Below the pieces are notes generated by a model, which had not been told where the DNA came from, ran no database searches, and was given only the letters and a program-made list of their open reading frames with translations. 39,035 bases of DNA from an uncultured Desulfosporosinus sp. (lineage in GTDB: Bacteria; Bacillota; Desulfitobacteriia; Desulfitobacteriales; Desulfitobacteriaceae): positions 1-39,035 of the forward strand of contig CAKMJS010000019.1 in assembly GCA_927405585.1 (NCBI GenBank), read 5' to 3'. Positions 4,650 to 31,815 of the stretch are shown piece by piece. Position numbers and translations under genes: made by a program. The number at the start of each line of letters is the position of its first letter. The first letter of the stretch is position 1.

Positions 4650-4666
4650 TGAAACTCCTCCTTAGA

Positions 4667-4722
4667 TTCGAAGCTCGATGCTCGAAAATCAACTATCGCG
4701 CCTCGCACTTCGCTATTGCAGA
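4667..4722. repeat. Heptanucleotide tract upstream of fabZ
   Basis: Eight consecutive 7-mers run in register; six read NTCGNNN and two are degenerate: TTCGAAG, CTCGATG, CTCGAAA, ATCAACT, ATCGCGC, CTCGCAC, TTCGCTA, TTGCAGA. The tract lies in the spacer between fabZ and the divergent glycosyltransferase, just upstream of the fabZ ribosome site. Confidence 0.7.
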
Positions 4723-12235: not shown

Positions 12236-12264
12236 AATCTATGCAGAAGAGATTTAGAATATGT
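12236..12264 (-). promoter_or_regulatory. Sigma-E-type promoter of spoIID
   Basis: On the minus strand ACATATT (-35) and CATAGATT (-10) are separated by 14 bases. Sigma-E promoters in Bacillus read about KMATATT-N14-CATACANT, so the fit is close. The predicted start of transcription is about 25-30 bases before the spoIID ATG. Confidence 0.65.
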
Positions 12265-12328
12265 GGGACTTGTGTGACACAGCGCTCGGTACTTAGTGGG
12301 ACTTGTGTGACACAGTGCTCAGTACTTA
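12263..12328 (+). repeat. 33-bp tandem direct repeat, two copies
   Basis: 12263-12295 and 12296-12328 are identical except for two bases (CGCTCG versus TGCTCA). The first copy starts at the edge of the spoIID -35 element. GTGTGACACAGCGC (12272-12285) is the exact reverse complement of 12493-12506. Confidence 0.85.
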
Positions 12329-12581: not shown

Positions 12582-12915
12582 ATAGCCTCTTATTCATATC
12601 TTATTCCTATTCCTCATCACCCTAGCTAGAGGGGCCGCGATCGCACGCTCCGACGCCTATGCGGTCGTCGTAGCCAAACTCGGGTTTAAGCCGCTTTCAT
12701 CAGTAGGGCGGGAAACAAGGACGTTTCCCGCCGGCACTGCGACAAGGATGTCGCATTTGACGGGAACCCTGCCTCTTCCATAACGGATTAAAGCCCTAGT
12801 TTGTCACGACAACCGCATGGCCGAGGAGAGTGTGACGCGGGACCCTCCCACGATGAACGCATGGCCGAGGACGTGTGATCGCGGACCCTCCGAGGACGTG
12901 TGATCGCGGACCCTC
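12582..12915. repeat. Repeat-filled murA 3' region
   Basis: No gene is seen. It holds two perfect AAGGAY-loop hairpins: 12707-12732 (10-bp arms GGCGGGAAAC / GTTTCCCGCC, loop AAGGAC) and 12738-12755 (arms TGCGAC / GTCGCA, loop AAGGAT). A 12-bp palindrome TTGTCACGACAA lies at 12801-12812. Two perfect 25-bp direct copies lie at 12866-12890 and 12891-12915, with a degenerate third from 12814. The last copy ends exactly at the base before the murA stop codon. Confidence 0.8.
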
Positions 12916-14175
12916 CTACGACACTGACTCTTCTCTCACAATATTAGCACCTAAGCGGCAGAGCTTTTCCTCCACCTTCTCATAACCACGATCAATGTGC
13001 TGGATTCCTCGGATACTAGTGGTCCCTTCCGCTGTCAAGGCGGCTAGAATTAAGGCGGCTCCGGCTCGCAAATCAGTGGCAGTCACCGGTGCAGCATTCA
13101 AGCGTTGTATCCCATGAATTATGGCACTACGACCTTCAATTTTAATATCCGCGCCCATACGTTTTAACTCATCAACATGCATAAAACGGTTTTCAAAAAC
13201 GGTCTCTGTAATCAAGCCCGTGCCATTTGACCGGGCAAGAAAAGCCAAAAACGGTGCTTGGAGGTCTGTGGGGAAGCCGGGATGAACTTGAGTTTTAATA
13301 TCCACAGCATTATAGATACCATCTCCGCTAATGCGGATGCCGTCGCCTTCTTCAGACATACGAATCCCGGCCTCTTCCATTTTGGCAATTAACGGCTTGA
13401 GATGATCTGCAATCACGTTTTGAACTAAGACATCTCCACCCGTTGCTGCCGCTATGAGTAGGTAGCTTCCTGCTTCGATACGATCAGGGATTACGGTATG
13501 TGTGGTGCCGTGAAACTCACGAACCCCTTCAATATGAATAATACTAGTACCTGCACCGCGTACTTTGCCACCCATCTCGTTCAGAAAGGTTGCAAGATCA
13601 ACAATTTCTGGTTCCTGAGCTGCGTTTTCTATAAGGGTTGTCCCTTGAGCCATTGCTGCCGCCATCATAATATTTTGGGTGGCTCCAACACTGGGGTAAT
13701 CTAGGTAAATACGGGCTCCCTTTAACCCTTTAGACGAAACGTCTAAGAAGCCATGATCCATAATAACCTCTGCCCCTAAAGCCTCTAATCCCTTTAAGTG
13801 CAAGTTAATGGGACGAGATCCGATCGCGCACCCACCTGGATGGGAAATACGCACATGGCCATTGCGGGCTAAGAGCGGTCCCATCGTGACAATAGACGCT
13901 CTCATTTGAGAAACAAGGTCATAAGGAACCTCAATACAATCTAACTCACGGGCATGGATTTTCAGAGTCGAGCCGTTACGCTCAACCTTTGCACCCAAAG
14001 CCGAAATGATCTGATTCATGACGTTAACATCCAACAAATCTGGAGCGTCATCTAGTTGAACGGGTTCGGCACATAGCAAACTCGCAGCAATTATTGGAAG
14101 TACGGCATTTTTTGCCCCACTCACAGTGATCGTTCCCTCAAGTGCTTTACCGCCAGTGATAATAAATTTGCTCAA
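12916..14175 (-). CDS. murA: UDP-N-acetylglucosamine 1-carboxyvinyltransferase
   Basis: MurA transfers enolpyruvate from PEP to UDP-GlcNAc, the first committed step of peptidoglycan synthesis. The 419-aa protein is full length. The active-site loop HPGGCAIGSRP puts the catalytic cysteine at residue 116, so it should be of the fosfomycin-sensitive type. Lys22 and Asn23 of SGAKNAVLP are the substrate-binding pair. The start is TTG at 14175 with GGGGG about 12 bases upstream, a poor ribosome site; no better start is in frame. Neighbours ywmB and spoIID match the Bacillus murAA locus. The 3' end abuts a 25-bp tandem repeat. Confidence 0.96.
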   Translation of the reverse strand: MSKFIITGGKALEGTITVSGAKNAVLPIIAASLLCAEPVQLDDAPDLLDVNVMNQIISALGAKVERNGSTLKIHARELDCIEVPYDLVSQMRASIVTMGPLLARNGHVRISHPGGCAIGSRPINLHLKGLEALGAEVIMDHGFLDVSSKGLKGARIYLDYPSVGATQNIMMAAAMAQGTTLIENAAQEPEIVDLATFLNEMGGKVRGAGTSIIHIEGVREFHGTTHTVIPDRIEAGSYLLIAAATGGDVLVQNVIADHLKPLIAKMEEAGIRMSEEGDGIRISGDGIYNAVDIKTQVHPGFPTDLQAPFLAFLARSNGTGLITETVFENRFMHVDELKRMGADIKIEGRSAIIHGIQRLNAAPVTATDLRAGAALILAALTAEGTTSIRGIQHIDRGYEKVEEKLCRLGANIVREESVS

Positions 14176-23527: not shown

Positions 23528-23583
23528 TTCGAGGCTCGATGCGCGATGTTCGAGGGTCGAAGGTTATGTATCGCGCTGCGTTA
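23528..23583. repeat. Heptanucleotide tract between comEB and wecB
   Basis: Consecutive 7-mers in register: TTCGAGG, CTCGATG, CGCGATG, TTCGAGG, GTCGAAG, GTTATGT, ATCGCGC, TGCGTTA. The last three overlap the final codons and stop of comEB, so the repeat has shaped the end of that protein. Confidence 0.7.
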
Positions 23584-25980: not shown

Positions 25981-26066
25981 TTCGCACACGTTCCATCGCT
26001 ATTCACTTGTCGCTAAGGCTAAAACGCAAAACCCTTGTGCTTTCTGCATGTGCGACCGTTGCGTTT
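25981..26066. repeat. Degenerate heptad tract and hairpin in front of glyA
   Basis: CG dinucleotides fall at 25983, 25997, 26011, 26025 and 26053, all multiples of seven apart, in 7-mers such as TTCGCAC, ATCGCTA and GTCGCTA. AAACGCAA (26022-26029) pairs with TTGCGTTT (26059-26066) around 29 bases. The rest of the 276-base spacer shows no gene. Confidence 0.5.
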
Positions 26067-27401: not shown

Positions 27402-27450
27402 AGGCACAAGGGACTCTATACTCGAACTTCGAAGTTCGCACATTGTGCCT
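27402..27450. repeat. Hairpin with a 16-bp perfect palindrome
   Basis: CGAACTTCGAAGTTCG (27423-27438) is a perfect palindrome made of two NTCGNNN heptads. AGGCACAA (27402-27409) pairs with TTGTGCCT (27443-27450) around it. It lies in the spacer just after the ywlE stop codon. Confidence 0.65.
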
Positions 27451-30533: not shown

Positions 30534-30589
30534 CTCGATGTTCGTGGTTCGTGGTTCGAACTACAAATATCGAACATCGCTATTGGATC
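30534..30589. repeat. Heptanucleotide tract between prmC and prfA
   Basis: Eight consecutive 7-mers: CTCGATG, TTCGTGG, TTCGTGG, TTCGAAC, TACAAAT, ATCGAAC, ATCGCTA, TTGGATC. The last two overlap the prfA stop codon (30580-30582) and final codons. Confidence 0.7.
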
Positions 30590-31650: not shown

Positions 31651-31699
31651 TTTTCACACCCCAAAAAATTTACGTAAGTTCTTGATCTAAATCATATGG

Positions 31700-31753
31700 T
31701 CAAGCATCATTACCCCTACTGAAACAACTTACTTGCCAGACGGGTTTACTCAT
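31700..31753 (-). other. Possible 17-codon leader frame before prfA
   Basis: A short frame, ATG at 31753 to TGA at 31700, lies between the predicted promoter and prfA. It would encode MSKPVWQVSCFSRGNDA. GAGGAACGTAGG precedes it. Such short frames occur by chance; this one is listed because it has a start signal and lies in a probable leader. Confidence 0.2.
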
Positions 31754-31766
31754 CCTACGTTCCTCT

Positions 31767-31775
31767 ATTATATCA
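31767..31775 (-). promoter_or_regulatory. Possible extended -10 promoter of prfA
   Basis: The minus strand reads TGATATAAT, a perfect extended -10 (TGN-TATAAT). No good -35 is seen. It lies downstream of the rpmE terminator, the right place for a new transcript starting prfA. Confidence 0.5.
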
Positions 31776-31815
31776 ATGCGCGAGGTCAGAGGTTCGCGCT
31801 TCGCTACGGACATTT

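Follow-up and report, generated by a model that had tools for sequence, protein, structure and literature searches.

The window analyzed here, the whole stretch of 39,035 nucleotides from an uncultured Desulfosporosinus sp., carries tracts of degenerate heptanucleotides in several spacers, next to genes that we take to be comFC, fabZ, comEB, wecB, ywlE, rpiB, prfA, and prmC (names given by reading translations or from the usual gene order). With a matrix of the heptad register trained without the window, each spacer was scored against 1,000 dinucleotide shuffles of itself, and none of the shuffles reached the scores of five spacers, namely those upstream of comFC and fabZ as well as comEB-wecB, ywlE-rpiB, and prfA-prmC. 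Five of the six tracts proposed in a preliminary description of this DNA are thereby borne out, while the sixth (25981-26053) has to be withdrawn, its spacer scoring 6.8, a value reached by 878 of the 1,000 shuffles.

Upstream of comFC, degenerate heptads occupy 2267-2308 on the minus strand with a register score of 28.8 (39.6 for the spacer). By the Shine-Dalgarno region of comFC, a short minus-strand hairpin formed by TCGTGGTTCG and CGAATCACGA (2253-2279) pairs in the fold of 2240-2330, with a z-score of only -1.04. On the same strand, a near-perfect direct array of the unit TAACGAC (2323-2371) is separated by 8 nt from the stop codon that ends the upstream gene; TRF delimits it as (CGACTAA)7 at 2326-2374 with 7.0 copies and 95% matches, and its computed fold is not stable. 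Repeats of other kinds also occur in the window, including a 260-bp unit near the contig start (420-910, 1.9 copies, 93%) and, beside a murA-like gene, a 33-bp unit present twice (12263-12328) and a perfect 25-bp unit present 2.1 times (12865-12916).

The divergent spacer between fabZ and a glycosyltransferase gene contains a tract at 4666-4714 (score 38.3), whose partly complementary arms (4669-4684 and 4697-4712) are paired in a fold with a z-score of only -1.0. Further short period-7 runs were returned by TRF at 4668-4686 and 30540-30558. In the comEB-wecB spacer, a CHTCGMR arm spans 23528-23562 on the minus strand (score 43.0), and an opposite arm on this strand (23570-23576, sense GCGCGAT) lies within the last comEB codons, immediately before the stop codon at 23564-23566, and pairs in the fold with sense ATCGCGC at 23541-23547. 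A short minus-strand tract (27420-27447, score 22.7) follows the ywlE stop codon, and a two-arm tract (30534-30582, minus strand, score 37.0) fills the prfA-prmC spacer, beginning at the stop codon of prfA and reaching the Shine-Dalgarno site of prmC. The earlier statement that two tracts enter the last codons of their genes accordingly applies to comEB, not to prfA, where the tract starts at the stop codon and the last sense codons hold no CG in register. Among the six tract regions of the window that were folded, the direct array being left out, only prfA-prmC (z -3.18) and ywlE-rpiB (z -2.38) fell below -2.

A tract absent from the preliminary description ends at a TATAAT upstream of prfA (31772-31806, minus strand, score 20.1), and heptads are found at this place in many congeners. 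There, heptad arms with very different letters stand between a terminator-like stem and the TATAAT, and none were found in G022, G017, and G010. In several congeners, a presumably DUF1385-like gene lies between this promoter and prfA; in the window, it is seemingly reduced to a few start codons (31651-31770), and it is absent here in G021 and G028.

Period seven in the genus

The genome of the window was sampled with 336,787 bases of 4.48 Mb, and in its intergenic DNA 168 CG-CG pairs occur at lag 7 as compared to 111 at lag 6 and 116 at lag 8, with high counts also at lags 14 and 21 (167 and 155). Coding DNA has no lag-7 excess (459 CG pairs, with 492 at lag 6 and 427 at lag 8). At the rpiB loci of 20 congeners, the corresponding numbers are 220 for lag 7, 89 for lag 6, and 70 for lag 8. 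When tracts were counted with at least three of four TCG/CGA words in register, nine Desulfosporosinus samples (1,110,924 bases) yielded 39 intergenic tracts at lag 7 and 1, 2, 2, 6, and 9 at lags 5, 6, 8, 9, and 10, respectively. An excess of lag 7 over lags 6 and 8 had been anticipated genome-wide, and is found in intergenic DNA with samples standing for whole genomes; the words underlying it are TCGA, CGA, and TCG. Tract density is uneven, ranging from none in 60 kb of G011 to five in 40 kb of G028. The heptad tracts are thus real, widespread in the Desulfosporosinus samples, and of an already known kind.

In a unit-blind TRF run over the genus set, coding DNA included, period 7 accounted for 41 arrays, period 6 for 25, and period 8 for 9. 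Counted from the listing, 13 of the 41 have a TCGA unit, 10 another unit with CG, and 18 a unit lacking CG, so that heptads other than the TCGA type also exist in the genus. A perfect CGTTCTC array with 10.7 copies, not of the TCGA unit, is present in the window's own genome (L013, 14581-14655). Separately, a second dispersed repeat with GGTCCCTTCTCGCCATC occurs in intergenic indels of G006, G009, and G012 (L179-L183, L184-L188, and L242 13528-13787), and in G015 a stretch similar to this repeat is contained in a heptad-element loop.

Tracts recur at orthologous spacers, as the preliminary description required. At prfA-prmC, two or more CG pairs at lag 7 are present in 17 of the 28 genomes of Desulfosporosinus (11 pairs in G027 and 10 in G016). 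Over all 28 genomes, the pairs sum to 75 at lag 7 and to 6, 0, 6, and 2 at lags 5, 6, 8, and 9; no lag-7 pair was found at this spacer in G001, G018, G002, G011, and G013, and the spacer is 1 nt long in G003 and G019. At comEB-wecB, a lag-7 tract is present in G000, G016, G003, and G026, that is, in four of the 20 genomes in which both genes were found (G019 was left out, both genes missing from the locus). The comEB frame runs into the heptad element in the window, G016, and G003, while in G026 the element follows an earlier comEB stop codon. Unit turnover at orthologous loci is large.

Presence and absence at orthologous spacers, together with a unit and polarity common to many loci, could also be expected if a dispersed mobile palindrome of MITE or REP type had seeded the loci and heptad arrays had then grown in place. 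MITEs have terminal inverted repeats with a target-site duplication, and the heptad elements have inverted arms. However, among 57 elements, matches between loci of one genome reach at most about 52 bp at about 88% identity (overlapping same-spacer neighbors aside), and a non-systematic look revealed no target-site duplication. The one clean presence/absence difference, in which G013 lacks exactly 35 nt found in G004 and G007, reads as a deletion in G013, this being the simpler course because a FastTree tree joins G013 with G004 (support 0.964). We therefore regard seeding by a mobile palindrome as improbable. A recent mobile element was rejected, no recent copies being found among the 57 elements; nor do these form the many near-identical palindromes of 20-40 bp per genome that characterize REP or BIME sequences (REP definition in PMC3733652). 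An associated REP transposase is a further feature of that class.

Unit composition and drift

The oriented unit drawn from 50 distinct tracts with 263 units, those of the window among them, reads C-H-T-C-G-M-R, and G makes up only 3% at position 2; CG plus an adjacent T or A were conditions of detection. A scan with the unit matrix, itself derived from tracts with a step of 7, found 183 segments at this step and 6-32 at steps of 5, 6, 8, 9, and 10. Within the 58 tracts that comprise four or more units, neighboring units have 0.535 of their non-CG letters in common, as compared to 0.473 after shuffling of their order, the observed value being reached in 0 of 1,000 shuffles. This likeness of neighbors is expected from slippage. 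Only 6% of adjacent unit pairs are identical. The consensus of the Spo0A box is TGNCGAA, with G at position 2; an array of Spo0A boxes is ruled out by the 3% G at this position.

The preliminary description had argued that slippage alone would give identical units; the view that a CG spacing kept constant while the units drift calls for more than slippage and drift finds no support. In five pairs of sister species, CG sites of tracts differ at 8-17% (19-66 sites per pair) and non-CG sites of tracts at 3.7-12.8%, as compared to 4.5-5.6% for other intergenic sites, with tract divergence inflated by the use of tracts found in either genome; nothing suggests that tract CGs are protected between sister species. 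Gap events amount to 0.18-0.28 of substitutions. With indels about one fifth as common as substitutions and CGs unprotected, no selection is needed for a drifting array to retain its period. The register can be broken by 1-nt gaps, as seen in the pair G006/G009. The number of heptads is nearly constant between sister species, with a single whole-tract difference of 35 nt in about 14 places aligned (no orthologue was found for six further places), by which hypervariable slippage is ruled out.

The common unit with its near-lack of G at position 2 might also be taken to indicate that the arrays are binding sites of a putative protein that would read the heptads in one orientation on DNA or RNA. 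A second family member, G041, having its own unit with similar polarity (see below) is compatible with such a reader, as is the annotation of paired heptads in Geobacter metallireducens as putative global-regulator sites in the part of PMC2700814 compared. The lack of constraint on CG between sisters and the large unit turnover at orthologous loci nevertheless argue against it, and we consider protein-site arrays a rather doubtful explanation.

Arm layout and folding

A feature that the preliminary description did not contain is that many of the tracts form the arms of polar inverted pairs. By tendency, (TTCGANG)n starts at the upstream stop codon and (CHTCGMR)n ends at the downstream Shine-Dalgarno site. 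More than one tract occurs in fourteen spacers, and 11 of 12 pairs in opposite orientation are ordered TTCGANG then CNTCGAA (8 to 1 by locus, p 0.02), an order that reads identically on either strand. Placement was determined in 616 co-directional spacers, 37 of them with a tract, from loci chosen without near-duplicate genomes; arms and starts were called with a quick gene finder of our making, and we chose the 20-nt cut-offs ourselves. Of 33 CNTCGAA arms, 16 lie no more than 20 nt from a start codon (9.3 expected for uniform placement) and eight no more than 20 nt from a stop codon, while TTCGANG arms are within 20 nt of a stop codon in 10 of 15 cases (1.9 expected) and near a start codon in one. 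Of the 16 start-proximal CNTCGAA arms, nine belong to the prfA-prmC spacer and 15 terminate at the Shine-Dalgarno site, 13-18 nt ahead of the start codon. With each locus counted once (collapsed by hand), the ratios are 8:1 beside start codons and 3:8 beside stop codons (p 0.01). GGGG before the start codon is commoner beside tracts (14 of 37 as compared to 88 of 579, p 0.001), several of these cases being orthologous prmC genes. Many loci have one arm only.

Regions with tracts fold better than controls, with a median z-score of -1.43 for 47 tract regions and -0.27 for 150 control spacers (p 1e-5); 43% of the former and 17% of the latter fall below -2, and locus L023 reaches -7.8. Among 21 elements with two arms, pairing is better between own arms than after swapping (0 of 5,000), a pooled result that is inflated by the self-folding loops of long elements, and in only three of the 21 do own arms take first place in their row. 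At the rpmE-prfA locus alone (rpmE presumably, by the usual gene order), own arms are weakly better than swapped ones (312 of 5,040). One mismatch per heptad is seen in L023 and in one element of G041; as a rule, it is ruled out by pooled Desulfosporosinus mismatch distances, which show no preference modulo 7 (zero in 25 of 162). For seven elements of G041, zero accounts for 32 of 109 distances and two for 35.

Such data raise the question whether transcribed inverted heptads act as intercistronic hairpins in mRNA decay, processing, or translational coupling, with selection acting on their geometry. Arms set against stop codons and Shine-Dalgarno sites as well as the better folding of tract regions would fit such RNA elements, as would two stem changes: in G016, the comEB-wecB stem differs from that of the window on both sides (GCACGAT with ATCGTGC), and G026 has a stem GTTCT/AGAAC where neighbors have GTTCG/CGAAC. 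On the other hand, G-U pairs are in no excess over A-C mismatches (12 vs. 13), which argues against selection at the transcript level and leaves copying at the DNA level or common descent. Moreover, tract sites are unprotected between sister species, many tracts are one-armed, and 27 of the 47 regions have z-scores above -2. A functional role as RNA elements is thus unlikely in our estimate, if less so than the two explanations above. No match at gathering score to a structured RNA family of Rfam 15 was obtained in the window, L010, L023, L242, and L193 (119,035 bases).

Instead, we suggest, giving it about an even chance, that the tracts are a family of degenerate heptanucleotide-repeat elements that grew by duplication and arm copying within bounds set by selection and then drifted; the heptad tracts would then probably be driven by mutation. 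In its full form, an element would open with (TTCGANG)n at the stop codon of the upstream gene, continue with a loop, and close with (CHTCGMR)n at the Shine-Dalgarno or -10 site that follows. Arrays most likely grow through duplication of 7-nt units by slippage, and arms may be copied from each other when the DNA folds into a hairpin. Coding and ribosome-binding sequences under selection would limit the arrays, which may afterwards drift through point mutation, and most tracts would not be individually selected. Local slippage alone does not account for the unit shared across loci and the fixed polarity. The nearly constant heptad number between sister species, the weak preference for own arms at rpmE-prfA, and the period-7 arrays lacking CG also speak against this explanation.

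Related heptads outside the genus

Short tandem heptanucleotide repeats of cyanobacteria are known as STRRs. The tracts belong with intergenic heptanucleotide tandem repeats that are STRR-like in the broad sense by their tandem period of 7 and their intergenic concentration, but not by near-identity of units, most tracts being degenerate with the exception of the array at 2323-2371. The likeness to cyanobacterial repeats that had been pointed out before is sustained by the loci of other taxa, in which 7 is likewise the commonest intergenic period: TRF found 63 arrays of period 7, whereas no other period between 4 and 15 exceeded 10 arrays, and six of eight cyanobacterial loci contribute 33 of the 63. 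In common with Desulfosporosinus, cyanobacteria have intergenic period-7 arrays, whereas many different units per genome occur in their sampled loci and inverted pairing is weaker. Among nearby array pairs, 11 are nearer to inverted than to direct in the cyanobacterial loci (4 direct, 7 ties), 9 in Desulfosporosinus (3 direct, 1 tie), 12 of 12 in G041, and 2 of 2 in other loci, the pairs sharing arrays and thus not being independent.

Published systems are compared here as they appear in passages of the cited papers. According to Mrazek et al. 2007 as cited by MacGregor 2015, heptanucleotides are the most abundant long simple repeats in most bacterial genomes, and polymerase slippage was proposed (PMC4679880). 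Nostoc has a trnL intron whose P6b stem is made on its two sides of degenerate 7-nt motifs (TDNGATT or NNTGAGT); two different motifs reportedly serve one structural role, and 7-nt units are gained and lost, yet this is a single locus in a group I intron and not a set of dispersed intergenic tracts (PMC4476775). The heptamers GGGAATC of Xanthomonas and GGGGA(C/T)T of Nostoc are also mainly intergenic, and two Xanthomonas genomes contain 70 and 75 convergently oriented inverted pairs, but these heptamers are G-rich, quadruplex-forming, near-perfect in their copies, and markedly variable in length (PMC4692102, where heptanucleotide repeats of Calothrix are mentioned as well). Class 3 repeats of Geobacter metallireducens (MTYCTGA) form heptad pairs on opposite strands and were proposed to be regulator or IHF/HU sites; they stem from another phylum, comprise 16 sites, and have a unit other than that of Desulfosporosinus (PMC2700814). 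TAACTGA of Beggiatoaceae is an intergenic heptad shortly upstream of start codons as well, but is one exact unit, nearly always direct (one indirect case reported), and related heptamers are rarely or never repeated (PMC4679880). None of the passages compared describes a polar layout relative to stop codons and Shine-Dalgarno sites, and among the matches listed from the open-access literature, a weak basis, none names repeats of this kind in Desulfosporosinus or other Firmicutes.

Beyond Desulfosporosinus, TCG/CGA tracts are at background: 15 loci of the family yielded a single weak tract, and the pooled loci L075-L153 (L075 being a Desulfosporosinus MAG) gave 13 at lag 7 as compared to 9-25 for the remaining lags between 4 and 13. 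In G041, a genome of genus g8 in the same family, unit-blind TRF of 140 kb yielded 29 intergenic arrays of period 7, whereas no other period between 4 and 12 had more than two. The unit of this genome, derived from 125 heptads selected for CTGA in register, is CTGAMTH, near to the rotated Geobacter unit CTGAMTY, and intergenic heptads of this unit are dense in L234 and L264-L269. TCAG arms of G041 lie within 25 nt of a stop codon in five of nine cases and never within 30 nt of a start codon, while CTGA arms are near a start codon in 6 of 14 cases and never near a stop codon; the order TCAG then CTGA occurs five times, the reverse order never, and the same orientation twice. No period-7 arrays were found in 22.8 kb of G042, the sole other g8 genome sampled, or in 7-40 kb each of four g3 genomes, and five of the ten remaining family genomes sampled have 1-3 such arrays and five none.

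With a layout alike and letters different in G041, the geometry of heptad hairpins may be more conserved than their sequence. There is accordingly a slim chance that a class of polar heptad hairpins keeps its geometry (7-nt steps, polarity, and arms at stop codons and Shine-Dalgarno sites) while its letters vary, with TCGA in Desulfosporosinus and CTGA in G041, a reading made less likely because the sample of G042 lacks arrays and the second unit comes from one genome. If it were true, a reader or enzyme acting on geometry would be implied, for example, a templated or slippage-prone polymerase with a 7-nt step. A heptad-rich genus, G041 with the same polarity in other letters, and heptad-free g3 samples together offer a system in which mutational bias could be separated from function.
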